Source of the DNA: Rhodothermus marinus DSM 4252
GTDB lineage: Bacteria; Bacteroidota; Rhodothermia; Rhodothermales; Rhodothermaceae
NCBI RefSeq assembly: GCF_000024845.1
Contig: NC_013501.1
Span: forward strand, 1,492,001 to 1,556,000
Reading direction: 5' to 3'
DNA length: 64,000 nucleotides
Shown here piece by piece: positions 38,432-62,025 of this stretch (its first letter is position 1; each line of letters opens with the position of its first letter). Position numbers and translations under genes: made by a program. The notes under the pieces were generated by a model, which did no database searches, was not told the DNA's origin, and saw only the letters and a program-made list of their open reading frames with translations.

Positions 38432-38488
38432 GCGGGCGGTTGTCGTTGCCAGAGCCGCCTTGTAGGAAGGCATTGAGTCGAACAAAAA

Positions 38489-38504
38489 TCCGTTATTGCA
38501 ATGC
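38489..38504 (+). repeat. 16-bp motif copy A, over the prfB start codon
   Basis: TCCGTTATTGCAATGC, with the prfB ATG at positions 13-15 of the motif. Identity with copy B extends further left (AACAAAA) and to one more base on the right. The exact core occurs at 52311-52326 and 54252-54267 as well. Confidence 0.75.
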
Positions 38505-39617
38505 AGGAAAAAATTCAAAGCCTGTTAGAGCGTGTGGACACGCTCGGGAGGTTTCTTTGACATCCCCGGGCGTAAAGAGAAAATCGCGAAGCTGAACGAG
38601 GAGCGCCTGGCGCCGGGCTTCTGGGACAACCCGGAGCGGGCGCGTGAGGTCGAAAAGCAAATCGCCGAAGAAGAGTCCTGGGTGGCGGCGTGGGAGCAGC
38701 TGCGTCGCCAGGCCGATGATGTACAGACGCTGCTGGAACTCCAGCAGGAGGAGCCCGACGCGAACCTGGAAGAAGAGATCGCGCGGGAAGTGGCCCGCCT
38801 GGAGCAGCAGCTCGACGAGCTGGAGCTGCGCAGCCTGCTGACCGATCCCGACGACCACCGGAACGCCATCCTGACCATTCATCCGGGGGCCGGCGGGACG
38901 GAAAGCCAGGACTGGGCCGAAATGCTCCTGCGCATGTACACGCGCTGGGGCGAACGACACGGCTACGACGTGGAGCTGCTCGAATACCAGGCGGGCGACG
39001 TGGCCGGCATCAAGAGCGCCACGCTGCGCATTGCCGGACCCTACGCCTACGGCTACCTGAAGGGAGAATCCGGCGTGCACCGGCTGGTGCGCATCTCGCC
39101 GTTCGATGCGAGCGGCCGACGCCATACGTCCTTTGCCAGCGTGTTCGTCTATCCGGAGATCGACGACTCGATTGAGGTCGACATCCGGCCCGACGAGATC
39201 GAAATGCAGACGTTTCGCAGCGGTGGAAAAGGCGGACAGAACGTCAACAAAGTGGAAACGGGCGTCCGCCTGATCTGGCACGGCAAGCTCTCGAACGGTG
39301 AGGAGGCCAGAGTCGTGGCCGAGTGCACCGAAGAACGCAGCCAGCTTCAGAACCGGCAGCGGGCGCTCACCATGCTCAAAAGCCGGATCTACCAGCTGGA
39401 GCGGGAGATCCGCGAGGCCGAAAAGCGCAAGCGGGAGTCCCAGAAGAAAAAGATCGAGTGGGGGAGTCAGATTCGTTCCTACGTTTTCCAGCCCTACACG
39501 ATGGTCAACGACCATCGCACCGAAACGAAAGTGACGGACGTCCAGGCTGTCATGGACGGTGACCTGGACCCGTTCATCCGGGCCTACCTGCTGTCGCAGG
39601 TGAACGAAGCCGCCTGA
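38501..39617 (+). CDS. prfB: Peptide chain release factor 2 (with programmed +1 frameshift)
   Basis: Release factor 2, recognising UGA and UAA; about 371 aa after frameshifting. Translation starts at the ATG at 38501 ([19 protein letters not shown]), meets an in-frame TGA at 38558-38560, and continues in the +1 frame from GAC at 38559. The second frame carries the full protein, with the catalytic GGQ in [20 protein letters not shown]. The RF2 codon-specific loop region lies in [21 protein letters not shown]. The nadB gene follows after 1 bp. Confidence 0.95.
38546..38561 (+). promoter_or_regulatory. prfB programmed +1 frameshift site
   Basis: GGGAGG TTT CTT TGA C: an internal Shine-Dalgarno (GGGAGG, 38546-38551) lies 3 bases before the slippery CTT TGA C. 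This matches the arrangement known from E. coli prfB, where scarce RF2 lets the ribosome slip +1 past UGA. It provides autoregulation. Confidence 0.93.
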
Positions 39618-39618
39618 A

Positions 39619-41220
39619 ATGCCCGAGCGTTATCAGTTCGATTTTCTGGTCATCGGTAGTGGCATTGCCGGCCTGACGTTCGCGCTGCGCGTGGCCGATC
39701 ACGGCTCGGTCGCCATCGTCACGAAAAAAGAAAGCGTCGAGTCGAACACGAACTACGCGCAGGGCGGCATTGCGGCCGTCATGGACGCGGCCGATTCGTT
39801 CGAACAGCACGTGCAGGATACGCTCGAAGCCGGGGCCGGCCTGTGCGACCGCGAGGTGGTGGAAACGGTCGTGCGGGAAGGGCCCGAACGGGTGCGTGAA
39901 CTGATGGCGCTCGGGGCACAGTTCACCCGCGAAAACGGCCGGCTGCATCTGGGGCGTGAGGGCGGCCACTCCCGGAATCGCATCGTGCACGCCGCCGACG
40001 CGACCGGCCGCGAGGTCGAGCGGGCGCTGCTGGCGCGCGTGCGCGCCCACCCGAACATTCACATCTTCGAGTACCATTATGCGGTTGATCTGATCACCGA
40101 GCATCATCTCGGCCAGTACGTCTCGCGGTTGCGTCCCGACATCCACTGCTTCGGGGCGTACGTGCTGGACGAGCGGGCCGACGTGGTGCATACGTTTCTG
40201 GCGAAGGCCACCCTGCTGGCCACGGGCGGTTCCGGGCAGGTCTACCTGCATACCACGAACCCGCCGGTGGCCACGGGCGACGGGGTGGCCATGGCCTATC
40301 GGGCCAAGGCCCGCGTGGCCAACATGGAATTCATTCAGTTTCACCCGACCACGCTTTTCTACCCCGACGGTCCCAAGGAACGCTCGTTTCTGATCAGCGA
40401 AGCGGTGCGGGGTGAGGGAGCCCGGCTCTACAACCTGGCCGGCGAGCGCTTCATGCCGAAGTATGACCCGCGGGCCGAGCTGGCGCCGCGCGACATTGTG
40501 GCGCGCGCCATCGACGACCAGCTCAAGCGGCGCGGCGATCCGCACGTCTGGCTGGACATCTCGCACCGGCCGGCCGAGGAAATCAAACGCCGCTTCCCGA
40601 ACATCTACCGGACGCTGCTCGACTACGGCATCGACATGACACAGCAGCCCATTCCGGTCGTGCCGGCCGCGCACTACCAGTGTGGTGGCGTACTGACCGA
40701 CCTGCACGGTCGCACCACGATTCATGGTCTGTACGCAGCCGGCGAGGTAGCCTGTACGGGACTGCACGGCGCCAACCGACTGGCCAGCAACTCGCTGCTG
40801 GAGGCGCTCGTCTTTGCCCGACGGGCGGCCGAAGACGCCGTGCAGTACATCCAGACGCAGACGTGGCGTACGGACGTGCCGGACTGGGACGACCGGGGCA
40901 CCGAGCGCCCGCAGGAATGGGTGCTCATCGCGCACAACCGGGACGAGCTGCGGCGCATCATGTGGGACTACGTGGGCATCGTGCGCTCGCAGCTTCGTCT
41001 GGAGCGGGCCCTGCGCCGCACCCGACTGCTCTACGAAGAAACCGAGGACTTCTACCGTCGCGCCCGACTCTCGCCGGGGCTGTGTGAACTGCGTAACATG
41101 ATCGCCGTGGCTTACCTGATCATTCGCAGCGCTCTGATGCGCCGCGAGAGCCGCGGCTTGCACTACATGCTCGACTATCCGGAGCCCGTCGAGAGCGAGC
41201 GCCGGCCCACGCTGGTCTGA
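39619..41220 (+). CDS. nadB: L-aspartate oxidase
   Basis: First enzyme of de novo NAD synthesis, oxidising L-aspartate to iminoaspartate with FAD; 533 aa. The FAD-binding [15 protein letters not shown], the family motif [40 protein letters not shown] and the active-site region FHPTTLF are present, with [10 protein letters not shown] and [19 protein letters not shown] near the end. nadA and nadC are not nearby. It is coupled to prfB (1-bp gap). Confidence 0.95.
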
Positions 41221-41306
41221 GGAACCCGTTTTTGAAGCCGTCGTTTATGCCGTCGGGAGTGAGCGGGTTGTGAAGTCGCCTCCACGGAACGGAGTCGGTG
41301 TGCATG

Positions 41307-41334
41307 AAAAGGGGGGCTCAGGCCGCCCTTTTTT
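41307..41334 (+). terminator. Terminator after nadB
   Basis: AAAAGGG-G-GGC pairs with GCC-G-CCCTTTT (one G-G mismatch) around TCAG and ends in six Ts. It is the first of two tandem terminator-like hairpins. Confidence 0.7.
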
Positions 41335-41355
41335 CGTTCAATCCGCTCAGGTAGT

Positions 41356-41388
41356 AACGCCCGGCCGTCCGTGGTGCGGGCGTTTTTT
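41356..41388 (+). terminator. Terminator-like hairpin in the rimP-nusA leader
   Basis: AACGCCCG and CGGGCGTT form a perfect 8-bp stem around GCCGTCCGTGGTG and run into six Ts. It ends only 16 bases before the rimP ATG, so any transcript into rimP from upstream must read through it. An attenuation role is possible. Confidence 0.7.
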
Positions 41389-41404
41389 GCAACGAGCGAC
41401 AACC

Positions 41405-41887
41405 ATGACGCAGACGACGCACGGGACGCCGGCGCTGATCGAGCAGATCCGCGCCCGCGTCGAAGAGGTGCTGCAGGGAACGACGTTCTTTCTGATCGAT
41501 GTCGTCGTGCGCGGCCGACGGGGCGCGCACGTGGTCGAGATTTTCATCGACGGAGATCGTGGTCCCTCGCTTCGGGACCTGGAGCAGCTGAGCCGGGAGA
41601 TCGGCTTTCTGCTCGACAGCGACGACCTGTTGCCCGGCCCGTACACGCTCAACGTGTCGTCGCCGGGCGTCGATCGGCCACTGGTGCATCCCCGCCAGTA
41701 TCCCAAGCACGTAGGGCGGGAGCTGGAGGTGAAACTGGTGGCCGTCGCCGATGCGCCGGCCGAGCGACTGCGTGGGACGTTGCAGCGCGCCGATGCCGAG
41801 GCGATCGAACTGCGACTTCCCGACGGGTCGCAGCGCCGGCTGCGCTATGAGGAAATTCAATCGGCCCGCGTCTGCCTGCCCTGGTAA
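41405..41887 (+). CDS. rimP: Ribosome maturation factor RimP
   Basis: A 30S assembly factor of 160 aa. The N-terminal alpha-beta domain (FLIDVVVRGRRGAHVVEIFIDGD, then LEQLSREIGFLLD) is followed by the LNVSSPGVDRPLVHPRQYPKHVGRE signature and an SH3-like C-terminal domain. The ATG at 41405 was chosen because family members begin shortly before the first strand. First gene of the nusA-infB cluster, 30 bp before nusA. Confidence 0.95.
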   Translation: MTQTTHGTPALIEQIRARVEEVLQGTTFFLIDVVVRGRRGAHVVEIFIDGDRGPSLRDLEQLSREIGFLLDSDDLLPGPYTLNVSSPGVDRPLVHPRQYPKHVGRELEVKLVAVADAPAERLRGTLQRADAEAIELRLPDGSQRRLRYEEIQSARVCLPW

Positions 41888-41917
41888 GGCGGGCCCCAAG
41901 ACCATGACAGGTGAGCC

Positions 41918-43183
41918 ATGCAGAACAGCGAGCTGGTATCTTCCTTTGCGGAAATCGCGCACTCGAAGGGAATCGACCGGGATACGCTCCAGCTGATCGT
42001 GGAGGACGTCTTCCGGGCCATGATCCGGAAGCGTTACGGCTCGGACGAAGCGTTCGAGATCATCTTCAACCCGGATCATGGCGACATCCAGATCCTCCAC
42101 ATCCGGGAAGTCGTGCCCGACTGGGAGCTGGAAGACCCGGTCACGCAGATTGAGCTGAGCGAAGCGCGCAAGATCGACCCCGATTTTGAGGTCGGCGATG
42201 AGGTAGCCAGCGAGGTGAACATCGCCGAGTTCGGTCGGCGGGCCATCATGACCGCGCGCCAGACCTTCAGCCAGCGTATTCGCGATTTGGAGAAGGAAAA
42301 AATCTATCAGGAATATTCCGAACTGATCGGCGAGATCGTCGTCGGCGAAATCTATCAGATTCGCCGGCGCGAGGTGCTGGTCATGCACAACCGCACGGAG
42401 CTGATTCTACCGCGCGAGGAGCAGATCCCGCGCGATCGTTACCGCAAGGGCGACACGCTCCGGGCGATCGTCAAAGAGGTGCGTCGTGAGGCGGGCGGTG
42501 CGCCGCAGGTGATCATCAGCCGGGCCGATCCGGTCTTCCTGGAGCGGCTGCTGGAGCTCGAAGTGCCCGAAATCGAAGAGGGGATCGTAGAGGTCAAGAA
42601 GATCGTGCGGGAGCCCGGCGAGCGCGCCAAGGTGGCCGTCGTCAGCCACGACGAGCGGGTGGACCCAGTGGGCGCCTGCGTGGGTCTGCGGGGGAACCGG
42701 ATCCATGCCATCGTGCGCGAACTCTCCAACGAGAACATCGACGTCATCGAGTGGTCCGACGACCCCCGGGAGCTGATCAAGCGGGCGCTGACGCCGGCCA
42801 GACCGCTTTCGGTCACGTTGAACGAAGAGGCCAACCCGCCGCGTGCCAAGGTGGTCGTGCGGGCCGACGAGGTCAGCCAGGCCATCGGGCGGGGCGGGGT
42901 CAACATCCGGCTGGCCTCGCGGCTGACCGGCTATGAACTGGACGTCTACCGGGAAATCCGCCCCGACGAAGAGGATATCGAAATCGAAGAGTTTGCCGAC
43001 GAGTTGGACGAAGAGATCATCGCGCGGCTGCGCGAGATCGGTTGCGATACGGCCCGGGCCGTGCTCGACCTTTCGGTCGAAGAGCTGATGCGGCGCTCCG
43101 GGCTCGATGCCGAAACCGCGCGGCGCGTGATGCATGTCATTCGTTCGGAATTTGAAGAAGACGAAGAAGAACTGGAAGGCTGA
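41918..43183 (+). CDS. nusA: Transcription termination/antitermination factor NusA
   Basis: Binds RNA polymerase and RNA to control pausing, termination and antitermination; 421 aa. An N-terminal polymerase-binding domain (about 1-130) precedes the S1 domain, KH1 and KH2 ([21 protein letters not shown] and [21 protein letters not shown]), and a short helix-hairpin-helix end ([17 protein letters not shown]). E. coli-type repeats of acidic domains at the C-terminus are absent, as in many bacteria. Confidence 0.96.
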
Positions 43184-43215
43184 ACGCCGATCGCAGGAGG
43201 ACGCAACAGGCGCTT

Positions 43216-45990
43216 ATGGCAAAGAAGTTCAAAATCCGGCTGTTCAAGCTAGCGCGTGAGCTGAACGTCGGGATCGATACCATCGAGCAGCAGCTCGGAG
43301 AGCTGGGCTATGCCCATGCGCTTTCCGGAAAAGGGGCCAATGCCGTCCTGGAGGACGAAGACGCCTACGAGGCGCTGCTGGAGGCGTTTGCCCACGACCG
43401 GAAGGTGGCGGCCCGGCTGAAAGAATTGCGCGAGGCGCGCGAGGCGGCCGCCCGGGCAGCGAAGGCGGAGGCAGAGGCGGCCGAGGCCGTCGAAGAAGTC
43501 GAAGAGGAAGCCGTTGAAGAAGTGCCGGCTTCAGCGTCGGCCGCCGAAGAGACCGAGCAGGAAGCTGCGGAAACGGCCGTCGAAGAAGCCACCGGGGAGC
43601 CGGAGGTTGAAGCGCCTGCTGCGTCTGATGAAGCGGTGGAGGCGGAGGAGGTCGCCGAGGAGGTCTCGGCCGAGCCCACACCTGCCCCTGAGCAGGAAGA
43701 AGAAGTGGAGGCGGTGGCAACAGCGGCTGCGACGGAGGAATCCGAGGCGGAGGTCGAGGCATCTGAGCCCGAAACGCCTGCGGCGGCCGAAGCCGAAGCG
43801 GCTCCGACGGAAGAGGCCCCTGAGTCCGCTGCGGAAGAAAAGAAAGAAGAGGACGAGGTGATCCGGGCGCAGGTGGTGCTCCAGGGGGCCAAGGTCGTCG
43901 GCAAAATCGACCTGTCGAAAGTCGAAGACGACGATACGCGGTCCGGTAAGCGCAAACGCAAACGCAAACGCAAAGCGAAGCCTGCGCCAGACGAAGAAGT
44001 GGTCAAAGTAGCCGTCGAGGACGAGGAGGAGGAAAAAACACGAAGCAAACGCAAACGCAAGCGCAAGCGGATTCGCCGCGTCGACGAGGAGGAAGTCGAA
44101 CAGTCGCTGCAGGAGACGCTTCGTGAGCTGGAGCAGGGCGTCAGCCGCATACGTCAGCGCCGGCGCCGTGAACGGCGTGAACGTCATGCGCAGGAACGGG
44201 AACGGGAGGCATTGCGGGAAGCGCAGGAAGCCCGCAAACTCCGGGTGACGGAGTATATCTCGGTGGGTGAGCTGGCCGAGTTGATGGGGGTCGAGGTCAG
44301 CGAAGTGATCTCGACGCTCTTCAATGCGGGGATGATCGTCTCCATCAACCAGCGGCTCGACGCCGACACGATCCAGTTCGTGGCCGATGAATTCGGCTAC
44401 GAGGTCGAATTCATCACCGACTACAACGAGCTGGAGATAGAAATCCCGGAGGATCGACCGGAAGATCTGCAGCCGCGGGCACCCATCGTCACGGTGATGG
44501 GGCACGTCGATCACGGCAAGACATCGCTTCTGGACTACATCCGCAAGACGAACGTGGTGGCCGGCGAGGCCGGGGGCATCACGCAGCACATCGGCGCCTA
44601 CCACGTGGAGCTGCCGGACGGTCGGTACATCACCTTCCTGGACACGCCGGGGCACGAAGCCTTCACGGCCATGCGTGCCCGCGGCGCCAAGGTGACGGAC
44701 ATCGTGATCCTGGTGGTGGCGGCCGACGACGGCGTGATGCCGCAGACGATCGAGGCCATCAACCACGCCAAAGCGGCCGGCGTGCCCATCGTGGTGGCCG
44801 TCACCAAGATCGACAAACCCGAGGCCAATCCGCAGCGCGTCCTCCAGCAACTGGCCGAGCACGGCGTGCTGGTCGAGCAGTACGGCGGTCAGGTGCAGTG
44901 CGCCTTCGTTTCGGCCAAGACCGGCGAGGGGGTCGATGACCTGCTCGAAAAGGTCCTGCTGGAGGCCGAGTTGCACGATCTGAAGGCGAACCCGAACCGC
45001 CCGGCCGTCGGCACCATCATCGAAAGTCGCGTGGAGAAAGGACGCGGCAACGTGGCCACCGTGCTGGTGCAGAACGGGACGCTCCGCGTGGGCGACCCCT
45101 TCGTGGCCGGCGTGACGAGTGGCCGCGTGCGGGCGATGTTCGACGAGCGGGGCAACCGCGTCGAGGCTGCCGGACCCTCCATTCCGGTGCTGGTGCTCGG
45201 CTTCGACGAACTGCCCGAAGTTGGCGACCAGTTCGTGGTCGTGCCCGACGAAAAAGAAGCAAGGGCGATCGCCCAGAAGCGTCAGCAGATCCGCCGTGAG
45301 CAGATGCTGCGCAAGCAGCGTCGCATCTCGCTCGACGAGATCAGCCGGCGCATGGCGCAGGGCGAGCGCCTGAAGGAGCTCAACCTGATCATCAAAGGTG
45401 ATGTGGCCGGTTCGGTCGAGGCGCTGAGCGACGCGCTCCTGAAGCTCTCGACCGACGAGGTGGCCGTGAACATCATCCACAGCGGCGTCGGCGCCATCAC
45501 CGAAAGCGACGTGATGCTGGCTTCGGCCTCCGACGCCATCATCATCGGCTTCCAGGTGCGTCCCACCAGTAGCGCCCGCCAGCTGGCCGAGCGTGAGCAC
45601 GTGGACATCCGGCTCTACTCGGTCATCTACCAGGCCATCGAAGACGTGCGCGATGCCCTGGAGGGACTGCTGTCGCCCGAAAAGACCGAGCAGATTGTGG
45701 GGGTGGCCGAGGTGCGCGAGACGTTCAAGATCCCGAAGGTCGGTACGGTGGCCGGCTGTCGGGTCCTCGAAGGGCGTATTCGCCGGGGCGACCGCGTGCG
45801 CGTCATCCGCGACGGCGTGGTCATCTACGAAGGCGCGATCTCGTCGCTCAAACGCTTCAAGGAGGACGTGCGAGAGGTGCAGAGCGGCTACGAGTGCGGC
45901 ATGGGTATCGAAAACTTCAACGACATCAAGGTGGGCGACCAGATCGAGGCCTTTGAGATCGTCGAACAGCGGCGCAAACTGGAGGTCTGA
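43216..45990 (+). CDS. infB: Translation initiation factor IF-2
   Basis: The GTPase that brings initiator tRNA to the 30S subunit; 924 aa. An N-terminal helical domain (1-60) leads into a long low-complexity region with Glu/Ala tracts and basic KRKRKRKR clusters (about 75-340). Then IF2-N and the G domain: G1 [10 protein letters not shown]3 DTPGHEAF, G4 as TKID rather than the usual NKID, and G5 SAKTG. Domains II-IV follow. GGAGG lies 15 bases before the ATG. Confidence 0.96.
43951..43974 (+). repeat. CGCAAA hexamer repeat (x4) in infB
   Basis: Four perfect tandem CGCAAA units encode alternating Arg-Lys. They sit in the low-complexity linker of IF-2 and could expand or contract without shifting the frame. 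Confidence 0.9.
44044..44067 (+). repeat. Second CGCAAA/G hexamer repeat (x4) in infB
   Basis: Four near-perfect units (AGCAAA, CGCAAA, CGCAAG, CGCAAG) encode another Lys/Arg cluster, separated from the first by an acidic stretch. Confidence 0.85.
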
Positions 45991-46370
45991 TGAGCAGCAG
46001 CATCCGGGTGCAGCGTGTGGGTAGTTTGCTCAAGCGCGAGCTGGCCGACATCCTGCAGTTTGAATTCGGGGACCAGCTGCCGCCTATGACGACGGTCACC
46101 GACGTGCAGCCCACGCGGGACCTGTCGATCGCCAAAGTGTACGTGAGCATCTATGGTACGCCCGAGCAGAAACGGGCGGCGTTCCGGCGGTTGCAGGAGC
46201 TGACGCCTCAGATCCGTGCGGCACTGGCCCAGCGCATCCGCTACCAGCTCCGCTTCATGCCCGAGCTGCGCTTCGTCCTGGATGAGACCCTGGAGCGGGC
46301 ACAGCGGGTCGAGGAACTGCTGGCGCGCATCCGCGAAGAACGGTCCCGCCGCGAAGATCAGAGTTCCTGA
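45990..46370 (+). CDS. rbfA: Ribosome-binding factor A
   Basis: A 126-aa KH-type protein for 30S maturation and cold adaptation. The start of the family pattern (RVQRVGSLLKRELADILQ) and the core LSIAKVYVSIYG are present, with the C-terminal FVLDETLERAQRVEELLARI. Its ATG shares a base with the infB stop (TGATG), so translation is coupled. Confidence 0.93.
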   Translation: MSSSIRVQRVGSLLKRELADILQFEFGDQLPPMTTVTDVQPTRDLSIAKVYVSIYGTPEQKRAAFRRLQELTPQIRAALAQRIRYQLRFMPELRFVLDETLERAQRVEELLARIREERSRREDQSS

Positions 46371-46373
46371 TCC

Positions 46374-47123
46374 ATGCCCGCTCCGCTGCCGGAGAACCCT
46401 GACGCGCTGGTGTACGGCTATCCCCGGCTGCCCGAGCGATGGGATGCCGCCGTGCTCCTGATCGACAAGCCGAAAGGCATCACCTCCTTTGACGTGATCC
46501 GGCGGCTCCGGAAACTGCTGCGCGTGCGCAAGATCGGACATGCCGGCACGCTCGATCCCATGGCCACCGGCCTGCTGATCTGTTTGATCGGGCGGGCCAC
46601 ACGCTGGATGACGCACTTTATGGCCCAGGAGAAGGAGTACGAGGGTGTCATGCGACTCGGCGAGATCACGCCCTCGTACGACGCCGAAACCGAGGTGGTG
46701 GAGCGCAGGTCCTGGGAACATCTCACCGATGCGGATCTGGAGCGGGTGCGTCATCAATTTGTCGGAGAGATCGTGCAGCAGGTGCCAGCCTATTCGGCCG
46801 TCAAGGTGAAAGGCAAACGCCTGTACGAACAGGCCCGGGCCGGGAAAGCGGTCGAACGCCCGAGTCGGCGCGTGCAGATTTACGCGTTTGAACTGCTGGG
46901 GCGTGACGGGGCCGACGTGGCCTTTCGGGTGCGCTGTTCAAAGGGCACGTACATCCGCAGTCTGGTGCACGACTTCGGGCAGGCGCTGGGGTGCGGCGCT
47001 CATCTCGTCGAACTGCGGCGCACCCGATCGGGACCGTATCGCGTTGAACAGGCCTGGACGCTGGAGGCGCTGGCCGAGGCGCTGCAAGCCCGGACATCAT
47101 CCCAGCCGGAAAGAAAGTCATGA
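46374..47123 (+). CDS. truB: tRNA pseudouridine-55 synthase
   Basis: Makes pseudouridine 55 in the tRNA T-loop; 249 aa. The catalytic Asp is in GHAGTLDPMATGLL, and KPKGITSFDVIRRLR and VPAYSAVKVKGKRLYEQAR are family motifs, with the RCSKGTYIRSLVHDFG C-terminal signature. A PUA domain seems missing, as in shorter bacterial TruB. The stop overlaps the ribF start by 4 bp (ATGA). Confidence 0.95.
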   Translation: MPAPLPENPDALVYGYPRLPERWDAAVLLIDKPKGITSFDVIRRLRKLLRVRKIGHAGTLDPMATGLLICLIGRATRWMTHFMAQEKEYEGVMRLGEITPSYDAETEVVERRSWEHLTDADLERVRHQFVGEIVQQVPAYSAVKVKGKRLYEQARAGKAVERPSRRVQIYAFELLGRDGADVAFRVRCSKGTYIRSLVHDFGQALGCGAHLVELRRTRSGPYRVEQAWTLEALAEALQARTSSQPERKS

Positions 47124-48058
47124 AGTTCGAACGAGGCCTGGAACAGGTCGCGCACGACGCGCGATCGGTCGTGACCGTCGGAACGTTCGACGGGGTGCAC
47201 CGGGGGCATCAGGCCGTGTTGCAGTTTCTGATGGCGCGGGCGCGCGAGCGCAACGGCGTCAGCACGGTGCTCAGCTTCGATCCGCATCCACGCGAAGTGT
47301 TGCGCGCCGAGCCGGTATCGCTGCTGACGACGATAGAAGAACGGGCTACGCTGCTGGAAGCGCTGGGTATCGAGCGCTTTATCGTGCTGTCTTTTACGCC
47401 GGAGCTGGCGGCCATGCCGGCCCGGCAGTTTGTCGAGGAAATCCTCGTGCGCCGCATCGGCCTGCAGGCCATCTGCGTGGGCTACGACCACACGTTCGGC
47501 CGCAACCGGGAAGGGAACGTGGCCCTGCTGCAGCAATTGGGATCCCAGTACGGGTTTGCGGTCGATGTCATTCCACCGCAGGTGGTGGGCGACCGCACCG
47601 TATCGTCCACGCTGATCCGAACCATTCTGCTGCGTGATGGCGACGTGCGGCAGGCGGCCGAATTGCTGGGGCGGCCCTATATGCTCCAGGCCACGGTCGT
47701 CAAAGGCGATGGACGGGGACGGGTACTGGGCTTTCCCACGGCGAACCTGCATCCCAGTCATCCACGCAAACTGGTGCCGCGCAACGGCGTCTATGCCGTG
47801 CGGGTATGGCTGCCGGGCGAAGCCGAGCCGCGAGGTGGCATGATGAATATCGGCATGCGGCCCACCTTTGCAGGCGATCGGCGCACGCTGGAGGTGCACC
47901 TACTGGATTTCGAAGGCGACCTCTACGGACAGGTTCTTCGGGTGGATTTCATCGAGCGGTTGCGCGACGAACGCCGCTTTCCATCGATCGAGGCGCTTCG
48001 CGAGCAACTTTTTCGCGACCGGCAGCGTTGTATGGAGGTACTGCAGGCCTCGGTATGA
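47120..48058 (+). CDS. ribF: Bifunctional riboflavin kinase/FAD synthetase
   Basis: Converts riboflavin to FMN and FAD; 312 aa. The N-terminal nucleotidyl-transferase has VGTFDGVHRGHQAV and the STLIRTILLRDGDV region. The C-terminal kinase has GDGRGRVLGFPTANL, MNIGMRPTF and DFEGDLYGQ. The start is the ATG at 47120, overlapping the truB stop. Conserved in the nusA cluster of many bacteria. Confidence 0.95.
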   Translation: MKFERGLEQVAHDARSVVTVGTFDGVHRGHQAVLQFLMARARERNGVSTVLSFDPHPREVLRAEPVSLLTTIEERATLLEALGIERFIVLSFTPELAAMPARQFVEEILVRRIGLQAICVGYDHTFGRNREGNVALLQQLGSQYGFAVDVIPPQVVGDRTVSSTLIRTILLRDGDVRQAAELLGRPYMLQATVVKGDGRGRVLGFPTANLHPSHPRKLVPRNGVYAVRVWLPGEAEPRGGMMNIGMRPTFAGDRRTLEVHLLDFEGDLYGQVLRVDFIERLRDERRFPSIEALREQLFRDRQRCMEVLQASV

Positions 48059-48145
48059 GGCCTGATCTTTTGACACGCGGCTTTACCTGGAGTTGCGGGT
48101 CAGCTTCTTTAGCATGGTATCAATCTAAAGAGGGGACCACAGCAC

Positions 48146-48412
48146 ATGATCAGCAAGGAACTCAAGCGCGAACTGATTCGCAAGTACGGCACCCACGAAA
48201 ACGACACGGGCCGGCCGGAAGTCCAGATCGCCATCTTCACGCACCGCATTAATGCGCTGACCGAGCACCTGCAGCGCCATCCCAAGGATTTTTCCACGCG
48301 CCGCGGCCTTTTGAAGCTGGTCGGTAAGCGGCGCCGCTTGCTCGACTATCTCATGCGCGAAGATTTTGAGCGCTACCGCGCAATTATCGAGGAGCTGGGC
48401 ATTCGTAAGTAA
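48146..48412 (+). CDS. rpsO: 30S ribosomal protein S15
   Basis: An 88-aa primary 16S rRNA-binding protein, full length. The sequence [21 protein letters not shown] and the [19 protein letters not shown] core are typical. It lies 87 bp after ribF; TTGACA at 48070-48075 in that gap may serve as a -35, though no good -10 is placed. AGAGGGGA precedes the ATG. Confidence 0.97.
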
Positions 48413-48418
48413 AAGGGC

Positions 48419-48446
48419 CGGCGGCATCCCTGAGCGGATGCCGCCG
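48419..48446 (+). promoter_or_regulatory. Perfect hairpin between rpsO and pnp
   Basis: CGGCGGCATCC and GGATGCCGCCG form an 11-bp stem around CTGAGC. No T-run follows, so it is not a normal terminator. It sits where E. coli has the terminator and RNase III site through which PNPase regulates its own mRNA. Confidence 0.6.
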
Positions 48447-48492
48447 CGCTTATTGGGCCAGCAGGCCCGCAAAAACAGGGTAGAGAACGGTT

Positions 48493-50811
48493 ATGATGAC
48501 GCAGACAACCATTCACGAAATCGAATTCGCCCCGGGGAAGTCACTGCGCCTGGAGACGGGGCGTCTGGCCAAGCAGGCCAACGGCGCTGTGGTCGTCCGC
48601 CAGGGCGACACGATGGTGCTCTGCACGGCCGTGCTGGCCGACGAACCCCGCGAGGGGCAGAGCTTTTTCCCGCTGACGGTCGAGTACCGCGAGAAATTTG
48701 CCGCCGGTGGCCGAATCCCGGGCGGCTTCATCAAGCGTGAGGGACGTCCGACGGATAAAGAAATCCTCTCCTCGCGCCTGATCGACCGGGCCATCCGGCC
48801 GCTTTTTCCGGATGGCTTCTTCCACGAAGTGCAGATCATCTGCTACGTGATCTCGGCCGACGATCGGTACGACGCCGACGTGCTGGCCGGTACGGGCGCT
48901 TCGGCCGCGCTGCTGCTGGCTGGCGCGCCCTTCGACGGACCGATCGCCGAGGTGCGTGTGGGACGCGTCGACGGCCAGTTCGTGGTCAACCCCACGCTCA
49001 AGGAGCTCGAGCAGAGCGACATCAACCTGGTGGTGGCCGGCAAGGAGGACGCCATCGTGATGGTCGAGGGCGAGATGAAGGAAGTCAGCGAGGAGGACAT
49101 GCTTGAGGCCCTCGAGGTGGCGCATGAGGCCATCCGCAAGCTCTGCCGGGGCCAGCTCGAATTTGTGGCGGCGCACGGTCGTCCGGAACCCTTCCCGTAC
49201 CAGACGACCACGCTTCCGGAGGAGCTGGTGGCGCGCGTGCGCGAACTGGCCGTGCCCAAGCTGGAAGCGCACCTGCGTGCACCCTACGACAAGCAGACCT
49301 TCTACGAAGGACTGGAGCAGATCGGTGAGGAGACGGTCGCGGCCCTGCTGGGCACGACCGACGCGGAAGGCAACCAGGTGCTGGCCGAGGCCACGCCCGA
49401 AGGGTGGACGGCCGACCAGATCCGCAAGGCGGTCTCGCAGGTGACCCGCGAGGTCATGCGCCAGATGATCCTGCGGGAAGGTCGCCGGATCGACGGCCGC
49501 AGCCTGGACGAGATCCGGCCGATCTGGATGGAAGTGGGCTATCTGCCCCGCGTGCACGGCTCGGCCATCTTCACCCGCGGCGAAACGCAGGTGCTGGCCT
49601 CCGTGACGCTGGGCACGTCGAAAGACGTGCAGATGATCGACCAGATCTTCGTCCAGGGCGACAAGCGGTTCTTCCTGCACTACGAGTTTCCGCCCTTCTG
49701 CACGGGCGAGATTCGCTTCCTGCGTGGACCGGGACGGCGCGAGATCGGCCACGGCTATCTGGCCGAGCGGGCGCTGGCCGCCATGCTGCCGGACGAATCG
49801 TCGTTCCCCTACACGATCCGCGTGAACGCCGATGTGCTGGAGTCGAACGGCTCCTCGTCGATGGCCAGCGTGTGCGCCGGCTCGCTGGCGCTCATGGACG
49901 CCGGCGTGCCCGTCAAGAAGCACGTGGCCGGCGTGGCCATGGGCCTGATCAAAGAAGGCGACCAGGTGGCCATCCTGACCGACATCCTCGGCACCGAAGA
50001 CCACCTGGGCGACATGGACTTCAAGGTGGCCGGCACGCGCGACGGCATCACGGCCTGCCAGATGGACATCAAAATCGGTGGGCTGACGCGGGAGATCATG
50101 CAGCGCGCGCTGGAGCAGGCCCGTCGCGCCCGGATGTACATCCTGGATCTGATGGAGCAGACCATCGAAGCGCCGCGTCCAGAGCTTTCGCCATATGCGC
50201 CTCGCCTGACGCAGATCACGATCGATCCGGAGTTCATCGGCGCCGTGATCGGTCCGGGCGGCCGCGTGGTGCAGGGCATCCAGCGCGAAACGAACACCAC
50301 GATCGAGATCGAGGAACGCGACGGCGTGGGCGTGGTCACCGTGGCGGCCACGAATCAGGAGAACGCCCAGCGCGCCATCGAGATGATCAAGCAGATCGTG
50401 GCCGTGCCCGAGGTGGGCGCCGAGTACGAGGGCATCGTGCGCAGCATCCAGAGCTTCGGCGCCATCGTGGAGATCATGCCCGGCAAAGAAGGGCTGCTCC
50501 ACATCTCGGAACTGGACCACGGCTACGTGAGGGACATCCACGACTACCTGAAAGTCGGCGACAAAGTCCGCGTCAAGTTGATCGAAATCCGCGAGGACGG
50601 CAAACTCCGTCTCAGCCGCAAGGCCTTCCTGCCGCCGCCGGAGCCCGAAGCGAAAAACGGCGAGCCGGCACGCGAGCAGGCGAGCGCTGAGCGGAGCGGG
50701 CCGCCGCGTGATCACGCTTCCGGACGCTCCCATGGACCCGGACACGGCCGCGGAGGCCGGAGCGGACGGGGCCGCGGACCGGATCGCGGACGCGGTGGAC
50801 GCCGTCGCTAA
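48493..50811 (+). CDS. pnp: Polyribonucleotide nucleotidyltransferase (PNPase)
   Basis: A phosphorolytic 3'-5' exoribonuclease of the RNA-decay machinery; 772 aa. Two RNase PH domains flank a helical domain. The second has FTRGETQVLASVTLGT and ESNGSSSMASVCAGSLALMD. They are followed by KH (IGPGGRVVQGIQRETN) and S1 (YEGIVRSIQSFGAIVEIMPG) domains. An Arg/Gly-rich tail (SGRGRGPDRGRGGRRR) ends the protein and may bind RNA. ATG at 48493 or 48496. Confidence 0.97.
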   Translation: MMTQTTIHEIEFAPGKSLRLETGRLAKQANGAVVVRQGDTMVLCTAVLADEPREGQSFFPLTVEYREKFAAGGRIPGGFIKREGRPTDKEILSSRLIDRAIRPLFPDGFFHEVQIICYVISADDRYDADVLAGTGASAALLLAGAPFDGPIAEVRVGRVDGQFVVNPTLKELEQSDINLVVAGKEDAIVMVEGEMKEVSEEDMLEALEVAHEAIRKLCRGQLEFVAAHGRPEPFPYQTTTLPEELVARVRELAVPKLEAHLRAPYDKQTFYEGLEQIGEETVAALLGTTDAEGNQVLAEATPEGWTADQIRKAVSQVTREVMRQMILREGRRIDGRSLDEIRPIWMEVGYLPRVHGSAIFTRGETQVLASVTLGTSKDVQMIDQIFVQGDKRFFLHYEFPPFCTGEIRFLRGPGRREIGHGYLAERALAAMLPDESSFPYTIRVNADVLESNGSSSMASVCAGSLALMDAGVPVKKHVAGVAMGLIKEGDQVAILTDILGTEDHLGDMDFKVAGTRDGITACQMDIKIGGLTREIMQRALEQARRARMYILDLMEQTIEAPRPELSPYAPRLTQITIDPEFIGAVIGPGGRVVQGIQRETNTTIEIEERDGVGVVTVAATNQENAQRAIEMIKQIVAVPEVGAEYEGIVRSIQSFGAIVEIMPGKEGLLHISELDHGYVRDIHDYLKVGDKVRVKLIEIREDGKLRLSRKAFLPPPEPEAKNGEPAREQASAERSGPPRDHASGRSHGPGHGRGGRSGRGRGPDRGRGGRRR

Positions 50812-50841
50812 GCGCCACACCGAACGCAGGATGCGTAGAGG

Positions 50842-50871
50842 AGGCGGGGGCTGATGGCTCTCGCCTTTTTT
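50842..50871 (+). terminator. Rho-independent terminator of the rpsO-pnp unit
   Basis: AGGCGGGGGC pairs with GCTCTCGCCT (two G-T wobbles) around TGATG, followed by six Ts. It ends the nusA-pnp block. Confidence 0.85.
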
Positions 50872-50986
50872 GTGTAAGAACGGACATAGGCAGCCACGAA
50901 GTGACCGGTGCGTAAAAGCGGCCACAGGCGCGTTAGAGGCGCACCGGCTTGTGGTCATTCCGAACGTGTGAACAACCGAACGAACG

Positions 50987-52243
50987 ATGTCGGTACGGAT
51001 CGAAACAGATACGGTGACCTATCAGAAGACGGTGCTGCCCTGCGGATTGCGGGTCGTTACCGAAACGATCCCCTCGGTGCGCTCGGTGGCCGTCGGTCTC
51101 TGGGTGGATGTGGGGAGTCGGGACGAGGCCGAGGAAGAGGCCGGCATCACGCATTTCATCGAACACATGGTGTTCAAAGGCACCGAGCGACGCCGCACGC
51201 ACCAGATCGCCCAGCGCATCGAATACGTCGGCGGCTACCTGAACGCTTTTACCACGAAAGAGCACACCTGCTATTACGTACGGGTGCTGGATGAATACCT
51301 GGATCGGGCACTGGACACGCTGATCGACCTGGCCTTCCGACCGCGCTTCCCGGAGCGCGAAATCGAAAAGGAGAAAGAAGTAATCCTTGAAGAGATGAAG
51401 ATGTACGAGGACACGCCCGACGAGTACATCTTCGATCTCTTCGAGGAACTGGTCTATGCCGGGCACCCGCTGGGACGGCCGATTGTGGGGCGGGAGGAGA
51501 CGGTGCGTTCGTTTACCCGGGCCATGCTGCTGGATTTCATGGCGCGGCATTACACGCCGGATCGCATGGTGCTGGCGGCGGCCGGACGTCTGCGGCACGA
51601 GCGGGTGGTGGCCCTGACGGAACGGCTGTTGCGGGGCGTGGCCCCGCGTCCGACCAACAACCGGCAGCGGCAACCGGTGCCGGCCTACCGACCCGGCGAA
51701 CGCATCGAGCGGCGCAGCGTGCAACAGGCGCATCTGGTGCTGGGCGGGCGCGGGTACGACCTGCACCATCCGCGCCGCGCCGCTCTTACCGTGCTTAACA
51801 CGTTGCTGGGTGGCGGCATGTCGAGCCGGCTGAATCAGAACATCCGGGAGCGGTACGGTTACTGCTACAACATCTACTCGTTCGTCAACCTGCATGCGGA
51901 TGTCGGGGACTGGGGCGTCTATATGGGGACGGATCCCCGGCGGGTGGCGCGGGCCGAGCAGCTCATCCGGCGCGAGCTGGAGCGGCTGGTGCAGGAGCCG
52001 GTGGGGCGGCGCGTGCTTACGCATGCCAAGAACCAGGTCAAGGGTACGCTGATGCTGGGCCAGGAGAACATGAGCAGCCGGATGATGCGCCTGGGACGGC
52101 AGGAGCTGTATTTCGGTCGCTATTACAGCCTGGACGAAGCGCTGCAGGAAGCGGATCGGGTGACGGCCGAGGAGGTGCAGGCGGTGGCGCGTGAACTGTT
52201 TGCCGAGCAGCCGTATTCGAAGGTCGTGTTATTGCCGGAATAG
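50987..52243 (+). CDS. M16-family zinc peptidase (processing-peptidase-like)
   Basis: A 418-aa pitrilysin-family metallopeptidase. The inverted zinc motif HFIEH (in GITHFIEHMVFKGTERR) with the downstream Glu in KEVILEEMKMYED forms the active site, and the R/Y pair lies in GGGMSSRLNQNIRERYGYCYNIYSF. No signal peptide is seen. It resembles mitochondrial processing peptidase beta-type bacterial homologues. The gene becomes very G-rich over C toward its 3' end, just before the motif copy at 52311. Confidence 0.93.
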   Translation: MSVRIETDTVTYQKTVLPCGLRVVTETIPSVRSVAVGLWVDVGSRDEAEEEAGITHFIEHMVFKGTERRRTHQIAQRIEYVGGYLNAFTTKEHTCYYVRVLDEYLDRALDTLIDLAFRPRFPEREIEKEKEVILEEMKMYEDTPDEYIFDLFEELVYAGHPLGRPIVGREETVRSFTRAMLLDFMARHYTPDRMVLAAAGRLRHERVVALTERLLRGVAPRPTNNRQRQPVPAYRPGERIERRSVQQAHLVLGGRGYDLHHPRRAALTVLNTLLGGGMSSRLNQNIRERYGYCYNIYSFVNLHADVGDWGVYMGTDPRRVARAEQLIRRELERLVQEPVGRRVLTHAKNQVKGTLMLGQENMSSRMMRLGRQELYFGRYYSLDEALQEADRVTAEEVQAVARELFAEQPYSKVVLLPE

Positions 52244-52310
52244 TCTGGCGGAAGGGGCTTTTGCGGGCTGGGATTATTTCGTAGCTTTGGGCAAGATTCT
52301 GTCAACAAAA

Positions 52311-52326
52311 TCCGTTATTGCAATGC
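52311..52326 (+). repeat. 16-bp motif copy B, over the epimerase start codon
   Basis: TCCGTTATTGCAATGC with the epimerase ATG at positions 13-15, exactly as at prfB. The left flank AACAAAA is shared with copy A. Confidence 0.75.
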
Positions 52327-53255
52327 AAAAAGTGCTGGTAACCGGAGGCGCCGGTTTTATCGGGTCGCACGTAGCCGACGCCCTGCTCGAAAGGGGATAC
52401 GAGGTGCACATTCTGGACGATTTCTCTTCGGGACGCGAAGAAAACGTGCCGGCCGGCGCCGTGGTCCATCGGATGGACGTCCGAGATGAGGCTGTGGCCG
52501 ATCTGTTTGCGCGTGAGCGGTTTCCGATTTTGATCCATCACGCGGCCCAGATGGACGTGCGCCGCTCGGTGGCCGATCCCAAGTTCGACGCGGACGTCAA
52601 CATCATGGGACTGCTGAACCTGATGGAAGCCGGGCGGCAGCACGGCCTGCAGAAAGTGATCTTCGCCTCGACGGGCGGGGCCATTTACGGCGAGCCGGAC
52701 TACGTGCCCCAGGACGAAGACCACCCGGTGCGGCCGCTTTCGCCTTACGGCATTACGAAACTGGCTTCGGAAAAGTATCTCTACTTCTACGAACAGCAGT
52801 ACGGCATTCCGTACGTCGCGCTGCGCTACGCGAACGTGTACGGCCCCCGGCAGAACCCCCACGGAGAAGCCGGCGTGGTGGCCATCTTTACGCAGCGCAT
52901 GCTCGAGGGCAAGCAGCCGGTCATCTACGGCTCGGGCGAGCAGACGCGCGACTTCGTGTACGTGGGCGACGTGGTGGAAGCGAACCTGGCCGCGCTGGCC
53001 TATCCGGGCTCGGGCGTTTTCAACATCGGGACAGGCATCGAGACCAGCGTCAACCAGCTTTTCCGCACGCTTCGGGATCTGATCAACCCCGAAGTGCCCG
53101 AAGTGCACGGCGAGGCCAAGCCGGGCGAACAGCAGCGCAGCGTGCTGGGCTACGAACGGGCCCGCCGCGAGCTGGGCTGGGAGCCCCGGGTGTCGCTGCA
53201 GGAAGGACTCCGACGCACGGTGGAGTGGTTCCGCGCGCGGGTGACCGTCGGCTGA
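52323..53255 (+). CDS. NAD-dependent sugar-nucleotide epimerase/dehydratase (extended SDR)
   Basis: A 310-aa extended short-chain dehydrogenase, probably a UDP-glucose/GDP-sugar 4-epimerase or related. It has the Rossmann motif GGAGFIGSHVADALLERG, the catalytic Ser-Tyr-Lys in ASTGGAIYG and SPYGITKLASEKYL, and RYANVYGPRQNP. The exact sugar cannot be read. The ATG at 52323 lies in the repeated motif; upstream in-frame sequence is intergenic. Could supply the glycosyltransferase at 58.1 kb, though the distance gives no direct link. Confidence 0.9.
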   Translation: MQKVLVTGGAGFIGSHVADALLERGYEVHILDDFSSGREENVPAGAVVHRMDVRDEAVADLFARERFPILIHHAAQMDVRRSVADPKFDADVNIMGLLNLMEAGRQHGLQKVIFASTGGAIYGEPDYVPQDEDHPVRPLSPYGITKLASEKYLYFYEQQYGIPYVALRYANVYGPRQNPHGEAGVVAIFTQRMLEGKQPVIYGSGEQTRDFVYVGDVVEANLAALAYPGSGVFNIGTGIETSVNQLFRTLRDLINPEVPEVHGEAKPGEQQRSVLGYERARRELGWEPRVSLQEGLRRTVEWFRARVTVG

Positions 53256-53258
53256 GCC

Positions 53259-54005
53259 ATGTATCGCGTTCGGCTTCCCGTCTTCGAAGGTCCCCTGGAC
53301 CTGCTGCTCTACTTCATCCGACGGGATGAGCTGGACATCTACGACATTCCGGTCGCCCGCATTGCCGACGAGTTTCTGGCCTATGTGCGCCTGATGGAGG
53401 AGCTGGACCTGGACGGCGTGGGGGATTTTCTGTACCTGGCCGCCGTGCTGCTCCATATCAAGGCGCAGATGCTGCTGCCGCGCCCGCCGGCGCCGGCCGA
53501 CAACGAAGCGGAGCCGGTCGATCCCCGCCAGGAGCTGGTGGAGCGGCTCCTGAATTACCTGCGCTATAAGGACGCCGCCGGACGGCTGGATGCGCAGGTC
53601 GAGGCGCGGCAGCAGCTCTACACGCGGGGCGCGGCGGCCGGGGATGAAGGGGGCGAGCAGGGACCGCCGCCGCTGGCGCCGGTATCCCTGTTTGAGTTGC
53701 TGGATGCATTGCGGAGAGTGCTGGAGCGTCGGGTCGAACCGCCAGCGCATACCGTCCGGCGAGAGATCTACAGTGTGGAGGCGCAGATGGATTACGTGCA
53801 GGCGCAGCTGCAGGACGGCCGGGCGTGTCCGTTTGGAGAGCTGGTGGCCGGGCGTCCGCGTGGATTCGTGATCGCCACGTTTCTGGCCGTGCTGGAGCTG
53901 GCCCGGCAGGGCAGGATATGGATTCGGTTGCTGGACGGCCGGGAAGATTTTCTGGTGGAAGCCTGCGAAGCAACGGCGATGGAGGAGGCCGATGTCGCAG
54001 CCTGA
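53259..54005 (+). CDS. scpA: Segregation and condensation protein A
   Basis: The kleisin subunit bridging the SMC heads in chromosome condensation, 248 aa. The family start FEGPLDLLLYFIRRDELDIYD, then AVLLHIKAQMLLPRP and the C-terminal winged-helix region (FVIATFLAVLELARQGRIW) are clear. It overlaps scpB by 14 bp; smc itself is not in the window. Confidence 0.93.
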   Translation: MYRVRLPVFEGPLDLLLYFIRRDELDIYDIPVARIADEFLAYVRLMEELDLDGVGDFLYLAAVLLHIKAQMLLPRPPAPADNEAEPVDPRQELVERLLNYLRYKDAAGRLDAQVEARQQLYTRGAAAGDEGGEQGPPPLAPVSLFELLDALRRVLERRVEPPAHTVRREIYSVEAQMDYVQAQLQDGRACPFGELVAGRPRGFVIATFLAVLELARQGRIWIRLLDGREDFLVEACEATAMEEADVAA

Positions 54006-54627
54006 GCGCAATGGAATGGCGGCCACGCCGCTGATGCAGGGGATCGAGGCGTTGCTGTTTGTGGCCGATGCGCCGCTTTCGGCCGAAGAGCTGGCCGCGC
54101 TATGGGAGCGGGCCTACGGCACGCGGCCGGAGGCCGGAGAGATCGAGCAGGCCATCGCGGCGCTCAACGACGTGTATGAAAAGACCGGCCGCATTTTCCG
54201 GATTTATCGCTGGGGGGGCGGTTTTCGGCTGGCCACGATGGCTTCAGTAAGTCCGTTATTGCAATGCTACAAACAACAGGAAATCAAACTATCCCAGACA
54301 CTGCTCGAAACGCTCGCGATCATCGCCTATCGCCAACCAATTACCAAACCTGAAATCGACCACATTCGTGGGGTCAACTCCGACTATGCCATTCGACGAC
54401 TGCAGGAACTGGAGTTGATCGAAATAAAAGGGCGCAGCGATACGGTCGGACGGCCGTTGCTGTACGGTACCACGCGACGTTTTCTGGAGCACTTCGGGCT
54501 GAACAGCTTGGACGATCTCCCGGAGCTGCCGGAACTGCAACAACTGCTCGAAAATCCGGAGATCCAGCGCGAGCATCTGCGCCTGCTGTATCCCCTTGAA
54601 CCCGAGCAGGACGAACCTTCCGAATAG
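53992..54627 (+). CDS. scpB: Segregation and condensation protein B
   Basis: Winged-helix partner of ScpA-SMC, 211 aa. The first winged helix (GIEALLFVADAPLSAEELAAL) and second (LSQTLLETLAIIAYRQPITKPE, then RGVNSDYAIRRLQELELIE) are complete. At about 54240, mid-gene, base use changes abruptly from G-rich to C/A-rich and a copy of the 16-bp motif lies inside the coding sequence (PLLQC). The reading frame is uninterrupted. Confidence 0.93.
   Translation: MSQPERNGMAATPLMQGIEALLFVADAPLSAEELAALWERAYGTRPEAGEIEQAIAALNDVYEKTGRIFRIYRWGGGFRLATMASVSPLLQCYKQQEIKLSQTLLETLAIIAYRQPITKPEIDHIRGVNSDYAIRRLQELELIEIKGRSDTVGRPLLYGTTRRFLEHFGLNSLDDLPELPELQQLLENPEIQREHLRLLYPLEPEQDEPSE
54252..54267 (+). repeat. 16-bp motif copy C, inside scpB
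   Basis: TCCGTTATTGCAATGC within scpB coding sequence, encoding PLLQC. Its flanks differ from copies A and B. It coincides with the compositional break in scpB. Confidence 0.75.
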
Positions 54628-61095: not shown

Positions 61096-62025
61096 TCAGA
61101 GGTGCACGTAGTCGGCGGCGTTGTCGTCGAGAAAGTCCTGCTGGTGCACGTAAACCATCGTGGTCTGGATGTCCGCGTGCCGTGCCTGAGTCCGCACCTT
61201 GTGCAGCGGCGCGCCGCCCTGTACGGCCAGCGTGATCCCCGTGTGTCGGAGCGTATGCGCGCCGATACGTCGATCCAGTCCGATCTCCCTGGCCAGTCGT
61301 GCCACGATGTTGTAGATGCTCTGCGCCGAAAGCCGCCGGCCCCGTGAGTTGTTCGAGAAGCTGCGCCAGACCGGACCCCGTGCTTCGCCATAAAAGGCCG
61401 CCAGCCGCTCGAGCGACGTCATGCAGTGCGGCGGGATTTTGACGATTTCCTCGGTGCCTTTCTTTGTGCGCGGCAGCCGGAGCACGTAGTGCGCACCGAT
61501 CTTGCGAATGTGCTCGAAGTTCATGGCGGCCGCCTCGCTGCGTCGCAGCCAGCAGTAGAGTAGCACGCGCACAAGCGCTTCGTCCCGAATGCCCGTGCGG
61601 GGATGCGCCCGCGCCGCCTCCAGCATCTGACGAGCCTCCTCGCGCGAAAGCGTCACGATGTGGCGCTCTTTCGAGGCGCGGGGCAACTGCACCAGGAGCC
61701 GGACCACCGGCGAGCGGTCGACCAGTTCGACGGCCTCGGCCCATTTGAAGAACGAACTGACCGAGGAGATCTTACGCCGGAGCGTATTTTCGGCGCAACC
61801 GCTGCGTTTGAGGTGCTCGATGTAAAGGTTGACGTGCGCGAAGGTGACTTTGCTTACGTTCTCCAGCGAAAGCCGTCCGTCTTCGAAAAAAAGGCCGAAG
61901 AATTCCTCCAGGTCGTTGCGGTAAGCGCGGCGGGTGTTCTCCGAGCGGCAGCGCGAAAGAAACAGCGGCAACAGATCGTCGGCAAAGGCGCTGGCTGCAG
62001 GCAGCGGTAGTTTTTCGGGCAGCAT
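61096..62025 (-). CDS. Tyrosine recombinase (Xer/phage-integrase family)
   Basis: A 309-aa site-specific recombinase. The N-terminal SAM-like DNA-binding domain (NTRRAYRNDLEEFFGLF) precedes the catalytic domain with Arg in YCWLRRSEAAAM, Lys in PRTKKGTEEI, HTLRHTGITL (HxxR), RHADIQTTMVYVHQ (His and nucleophile Tyr). Size and isolated position fit a XerC/XerD-type resolvase, though the QARHADI motif differs from housekeeping XerD. No phage genes adjoin it. Confidence 0.88.
   Translation of the reverse strand: MLPEKLPLPAASAFADDLLPLFLSRCRSENTRRAYRNDLEEFFGLFFEDGRLSLENVSKVTFAHVNLYIEHLKRSGCAENTLRRKISSVSSFFKWAEAVELVDRSPVVRLLVQLPRASKERHIVTLSREEARQMLEAARAHPRTGIRDEALVRVLLYCWLRRSEAAAMNFEHIRKIGAHYVLRLPRTKKGTEEIVKIPPHCMTSLERLAAFYGEARGPVWRSFSNNSRGRRLSAQSIYNIVARLAREIGLDRRIGAHTLRHTGITLAVQGGAPLHKVRTQARHADIQTTMVYVHQQDFLDDNAADYVHL

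Follow-up and report, generated by a model that had tools for sequence, protein, structure and literature searches.

A 64,000-nucleotide stretch of the Rhodothermus marinus DSM 4252 genome (the window; C1:1492001-1556000, where C1 is the 3,261,604-bp chromosome, accompanied by a second contig of 125,133 bp) carries three copies of a 16-base motif, TCCGTTATTGCAATGC. Judged by polarity, clustering and a reversal of orientation where the GC skew flips and a dif site is predicted, this motif represents a family of polar sites arrayed, in Rhodothermus and its relatives, about the place where chromosome copying ends. We propose, with a probability of roughly 0.6, that the sites belong to a replication fork trap built on Xer2, a tyrosine recombinase relative predicted to be catalytically dead.

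All three copies are on the plus strand, at window positions 38489, 52311 and 54252, and allowing up to three mismatches to TCCGTTATTGCAATGC returned the same three and nothing more. The original prediction, made from the window, held that this is not chance; indeed, three copies were found in none of 100 shuffles of the window (mean 0.17). Enrichment across the genome and conservation in relatives, on which that prediction had been staked, were both found. With up to three mismatches, TCCGTTATTGCAATGC occurs at 25 places in the genome, compared with six for the pattern read backwards, a fourth exact copy lies at C1:1576483 (minus strand), and the motif is kept in relatives. The sites in the window, with gene names assigned by eye, are as follows.

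38485..38509, plus strand: Ter-like polar site, copy A, exact core at 38490-38501, extent from the footprint of an 85-site profile; over the prfB start
52307..52331, plus strand: Ter-like polar site, copy B, exact core at 52312-52323; over the epimerase start
54248..54272, plus strand: Ter-like polar site, copy C, exact core at 54253-54264; inside scpB

As originally described, motif position 13 begins the start codon ATG of prfB (38501) and of the epimerase gene (52323), and copy C lies in frame within scpB. The flank said to be shared to the left of copies A and B is real for AAAAT, which aligns directly, whereas AACAAAA matches only when shifted by one base, and the "23-24 shared bases" are obtained only with a one-base gap. 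The start-codon placement itself is incidental, with only some of the 16 sites in the surrounding 300 kb at gene starts. Of the roles suggested for the motif, a family of short dispersed repeats holds as a description, and the label of regulator site probably fits a single location, in front of xer2, without being the main feature. The orientation flip lies just outside the window edge and therefore could not have been seen by the earlier reader. The prfB frame, inspected by eye over window positions 38501-38570, apparently has the usual programmed +1 frameshift (GGGAGGTTTCTTTGAC).

An alignment profile of 85 sites from 12 genomes gives an asymmetric consensus of about 24 bp, approximately WWWT-CCGTTATTGCAA-nnn-AAAAA, in which AT-rich positions -5 to -1 precede the 12-base core CCGTTATTGCAA, followed by three loose and five A-rich positions. 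Allowing one mismatch, the core occurs 26 times in the home genome (25 sites on the chromosome and one on the second contig), compared with two for the reversed control, and 16 of the 25 chromosomal sites lie within 110 kb of the predicted dif. Gene starts bearing sites include those of prfB, the epimerase gene, gyrA and guaB. Some sites are old as judged by shared position. The scpB site is exact in the home genome (G000), G001 and G003 and has one mismatch in G017 and G026, with no scpB site at up to one mismatch in G012 and G018, and the 5' end of gyrA carries a site in both the home genome and G012, which belongs to another family. G261, a distant genome with Xer2, has 17 exact cores on several contigs, with an AT-rich 5' flank and without the downstream A-tract. 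A scan of GTDB with a 17-base pattern, from which the home genome and near relatives may be absent, was discarded as evidence on distribution: of its 77 stretches many come from unrelated phyla and are probably chance.

Across 300 kb around the window, the eight sites up to C1:1546253 are all on the plus strand and the eight from C1:1567182 onward are all on the minus strand; copy C is the innermost site of the left arm. Near 1.56 Mb the GC skew of the chromosome changes sign, falling from positive to negative; skew samples elsewhere place the origin at about 20-150 kb, and a dnaA-like gene (by eye) lies at 93-1673. The site flip, the skew turn and the origin position together indicate that the window region is the replication terminus, which is roughly 90-220 kb away from the point opposite the origin. 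Genome-wide, with up to one mismatch, 24 of the 25 chromosomal sites are oriented from origin to terminus, the site at 287280 being regular only if the origin is below 287 kb. Three right-arm sites (1567182, 1568060 and 1569344) are on the minus strand although the frames that contain or border them are on the plus strand and have homologs elsewhere, which argues that orientation is set by the replication arm and not by genes. A start-codon or leader element was rejected on the same grounds and on the scatter of sites relative to gene starts.

The same arrangement recurs in relatives. Genome-wide tallies, which are an unbiased sample of orientation, gave 24/24 sites oriented about position 1678608 in G002, 13/14 correctly oriented in G018, 14/14 on contig C2 of G001 and 13/13 in G012, where a further site at 207778, upstream of xer2, was not assigned to an arm. 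In the dif regions of 10 genomes, 950,810 bases in total, all 81 sites with up to one mismatch, including all 53 exact ones, point at dif, a tally that is not unbiased because these regions were chosen for a visible flip or a terminus Xer gene. In the same regions the reversed core gave three sites, and 300 shuffled cores gave a mean of 1.7 and a maximum of 20. Outside the class, contig C1 of G060 has plus-strand sites at 27788 and 60171 and minus-strand sites at 96926 and 109127, astride a GC-skew flip near 70 kb. As inspected by eye, the gene order at the terminus is partly common across families (miaA, a gene for a LacI-type regulator, purC, guaB, scpA-scpB, the epimerase gene and pnp). The LacI-type gene was considered and dropped, its presence in 9 of 13 regions being accounted for by general synteny. 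Outlying sites gave no pointer to a binder gene, as no DNA-binding gene was recognised beside them.

The flip interval of the home genome contains a gene for an apparently intact tyrosine recombinase.

61096..62025, minus strand: terminus tyrosine recombinase (Xer family; terminus Xer), from the Pfam Phage_integrase match and alignment, with catalytic residues kept

The predicted home dif is at C1:1558768, outside the window and 4.7 kb to the right of this gene; the candidate was picked for its arms, which match those of the plasmid dif exactly. Dif-like sites with an 11+6+11 layout lie within the flip interval in the 10 tally genomes and in G011, although these are predictions, and some intervals hold candidates of equal score. 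In seven of the 10, no more than 50 bp separate the predicted dif from the terminus Xer frame, and in G012 and G016 the distance is about 0.6 kb; the dif scan found no convincing dif in G003, G019, G060 and the first part of G002. A terminus Xer gene was present in all seven regions fetched by the motif alone (G000, G008, G012, G014, G016, G018 and G035). Terminus Xer proteins are 46-48% identical in a four-sequence alignment, and the one in G008 shows 26-28% identity in the same gene neighborhood. With E values up to 1e-15, two proteins of the Xer family are present in R. marinus. In a search for XerD, none of 12 Rhodothermales had a protein above the cut-off, which was exceeded in G094, G102, G060 and G261. 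Dimer resolution in Rhodothermales could rest on the terminus Xer beside dif, for which the XerS and XerH systems offer a comparison. Near dif in three genomes lies a gene similar, by eye, to phage Gp157, at C1:1556150-1556713 in the home genome and with relatives in G014 and G035.

The second Xer-family protein, Xer2, is encoded away from the terminus, at C1:447886-448821. In an eight-sequence alignment its homologs share 60-87% identity with R. marinus Xer2, a higher figure than for the terminus Xer. The fold family is that of tyrosine recombinases, as assessed by Pfam Phage_integrase and SAM-like domains and a PDB match to XerD, and Xer2 scores below the NCBIfam cut-offs for XerC and XerD. 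By its aligned arginines and tyrosine, Xer2 fails as an active tyrosine recombinase. Aligned with XerD, it has Ser and Thr in place of Arg148 and Arg247, respectively. The first catalytic Arg is missing in all 50 distinct genomes, and Thr replaces the HxxR Arg in those examined Rhodothermales that do not belong to family f15, which is motif-poor and has a diverged Xer2 (38-40% identity, three genomes). In 10 genomes outside the class, the HxxR Arg is kept and the His is lost, and the catalytic Tyr is replaced by Ser in G015, G017 and G036. The match of Xer2 to the 'RaiA' chain of 9i5v was set aside as uninformative on the dead family, because that chain keeps the catalytic arginines in the alignment. 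In G008, a distance of 43 kb separates xer2 from dif, and the nearby Ter-like site is 2 kb from the gene. Xer2 is the best candidate binder of the sites, and the array is probably bound by this dead recombinase.

Two observations link Xer2 to the motif. Among 296 genomes from the phylum, with Xer2 called at E at most 1e-35, at least six exact cores were found in 21/59 genomes with Xer2 and in 0/237 without it (Fisher p 7e-17), and at least four in 26/59 and 5/237, respectively. Outside the class, at least six cores occurred in 5/27 genomes with Xer2 (from four families, G060 being one of the five) and in 0/195 without it (p 2e-5). These p-values are overstated, because the threshold was set after the counts had been seen and related genomes are not independent. 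Besides, the region of about 220 bp upstream of xer2 contains an exact CCGTTATTG in 33 of 55 rows, where shuffling predicts 0.1. The 33 rows represent 29 of the 50 distinct genomes, namely G158 and 28 of the 35 Rhodothermales that do not belong to f15. In 21 of the 28, CCGTTATTG continues into TTGAC, a -35-like box, and in 16 of these 21 TATTAT or TTGATT follows 17 bases past TTGAC, which means that a protein occupying this site would mask the -35 box. G257 and G158 have the complete 12-base core upstream of xer2, and CTGTTATTG is found there in G151 and G222, which have Xer2 and few exact cores.

Plasmid-type replicons carry a compact version of the array. In three of them, a convergent pair of sites surrounds a dif-like site (Ter> dif <Ter); a fourth pair surrounds a different inverted repeat.

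114569 plus and 114728 minus, 125-kb home contig: convergent pair around a dif-like site
34941 plus and 35102 minus, R. marinus plasmid pRHOM17201: convergent pair around a dif-like site
1678543 plus and 1678702 minus, insert in the G002 chromosome: convergent pair around a dif-like site
1041 plus and 1143 minus, contig C2 (35.5 kb) of G018: convergent pair around a different inverted repeat

Each of the three Ter-dif-Ter pairs spans 169-171 bp; compared with the chromosomal dif of the home genome, the dif arms have zero (home contig), two (pRHOM17201) and one (G002 insert) changed positions. In a plasmid search, pRHOM17201 was the sole similar record. A convergent pair in viral contigs was taken as chance, since its four near-identical pieces represent one sequence in which the pair lies in an open frame without dif. 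Compared with home C1:1546253-1567182, the corresponding G002 C1:1596946-1745528 holds about 128 kb of extra terminus DNA, with a GC content of 0.54 in 20 kb sampled at 1.67 Mb and with the plasmid-type module. This extra DNA resembles an integrated plasmid, which may have entered the terminus via dif.

The fork trap that we propose would work as follows. Xer2 would bind single copies of about 24 bp as asymmetric targets, let pass a fork entering from the CCG side, as each arm's own fork does, and stall a fork arriving from the A-tract side. Forks could thus enter the terminus but not leave it, an overrunning fork meeting the other face of the far sites and stopping there. Forks would fuse near dif, where a separate, intact Xer could resolve dimers. 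Xer2 would limit its own level via CCGTTATTG over the -35 box of its promoter, and plasmids would repeat the arrangement with a convergent pair of sites flanking a dif of their own. We infer binding, autorepression, polar arrest and the blocking face, the last from site layout. In its broadest form, which we favor only slightly less firmly than the trap itself, this would be a third, independently evolved fork trap, in which a recombinase that lost catalysis became an autoregulated polar terminator acting on single half-site-like targets, distributed through Rhodothermales, other Bacteroidota lineages and plasmid Ter-dif-Ter modules.

Several observations weigh against this reading. The one-mismatch home site at 834876 is oriented wrongly, one exact home site is 0.8 Mb from dif, and outside the class polarity could be checked in G060 only. 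Xer2 is found without a rich array in many genomes, 38 of 59 having fewer than six exact cores, including G023 and G253, which have none, and since the terminus Xer tracks the motif too, phylogeny confounds the co-occurrence. In most genomes the promoter copy matches the Ter core through CCGTTATTG and no further. Exact CCGTTATTG was not found upstream of xer2 in seven of the 35 Rhodothermales (G008, G014, G017, G022, G026, G035 and G036), in any of three f15 or two f16 genomes, or in more than one of 10 genomes outside the class.

The same protein and sites might instead do another job, orienting or unloading an FtsK-type translocase or SMC-ScpAB, or aiding Xer recombination at dif. We regard this as the less probable explanation, while giving it real weight, because the polarity data fit any process running towards dif, the plasmid pairs flank dif at tens of bases and Xer2 is itself an Xer-family protein. 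However, the home genome already shows a leading-strand bias (49 to 13) of GGGNAGGG, which serves as KOPS in other bacteria, and of GGGCAGGG (19 to 1), although GGGNAGGG is not the most skewed 8-mer there. Known loading sequences are shorter and denser than some 25 sites of 24 bp, and the number of sites, their spacing, the position of dif and the autoregulation match fork traps. Identity of the sites with KOPS was rejected on these dimensions (about 24 bp and 25 sites, vs a short, frequent, chromosome-wide skewed 8-mer). matS, the target of MatP, is palindromic and non-polar, and was rejected because the sites have an asymmetric consensus and a fixed orientation.

That another protein, e.g. 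the terminus Xer, binds the sites and Xer2 is a repressor sharing only part of the sequence seems improbable. The terminus Xer does lie in the flip interval and tracks the motif within the order, and when the core is reversed (TTGCAATAA), eight of nine end bases agree by eye with the left arm of the home dif (AGTTGCGATAA). On the other hand, dif arms vary by lineage (AGTTGCGATAA, ATGTTTGATAA, ATGCAACATAA, ACCTGTGATAA) while the Ter core stays constant, which disfavors the terminus Xer as binder, and in the motif-rich G060, G119 and G261 Xer2 is present, but matches to the terminus Xer score too low (86-103 bits) to be close relatives. As for a control element of transcription or translation, or dispersed repeats with no role at the terminus, copies at gene starts such as those of prfB, the epimerase gene, gyrA and guaB speak for it; it leaves unexplained the clustering and the orientation to dif, and three right-arm sites are on the minus strand in or beside plus-strand genes. 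We consider it very improbable.

Neither known bacterial terminator appears to be at work here, since models for Tus (PF05472) and RTP (PF02334) found nothing in 13 genomes and did find the Escherichia coli and Bacillus subtilis controls, respectively. RTP, a small protein that forms dimers, is not related to Xer2. KOPS are 8 bp long and frequent. In Tus-Ter, two groups of asymmetric 23-24-bp sites face each other across the terminus, with dif between the innermost (PMC13220808, PMC8707476, PMC10331603), and Tus autoregulates via TerB in the tus promoter (PMC8707476). The array resembles this system in its opposed asymmetric sites of about 24 bp with dif between the innermost (the 10 tally genomes and G011) and in a site in the promoter of the putative terminator gene (29/50), and differs in having a tyrosine recombinase relative instead of Tus, an unrelated core and, in the home genome, an xer2 gene that is not at the terminus. 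With RTP-Ter it shares opposed groups and a nearby dif, and the plasmid pairs resemble the terI-terII sites of B. subtilis, which are opposed and about 0.1 kb apart (PMC13220808). Like Xer/dif, it involves the XerC/XerD fold family, with dif and an intact Xer at the array center; unlike it, Xer2 is without the catalytic arginine(s), and the sites are single, asymmetric and many, not one two-arm core site. The sites are polar and point at dif as KOPS do, but GGGNAGGG occurs separately in the home genome.

Reviews place fork traps in a small group of bacteria and name only two unrelated systems, Tus and RTP (PMC13220808, PMC10331603). Among the titles and abstract openings listed on fork traps, termination and dif, a scope outside which preprints and most subscription papers fall, there was no account of a system such as this one. 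If our reading is true, fork traps would have three or more separate origins, a point relevant to why such traps exist at all. It would also tie a fork trap to the evolution of Xer/dif, in an order in which no genome of the 12 exceeded the XerD cut-off, and would provide a compact plasmid terminus module together with a thermophilic terminator protein for mechanistic work.

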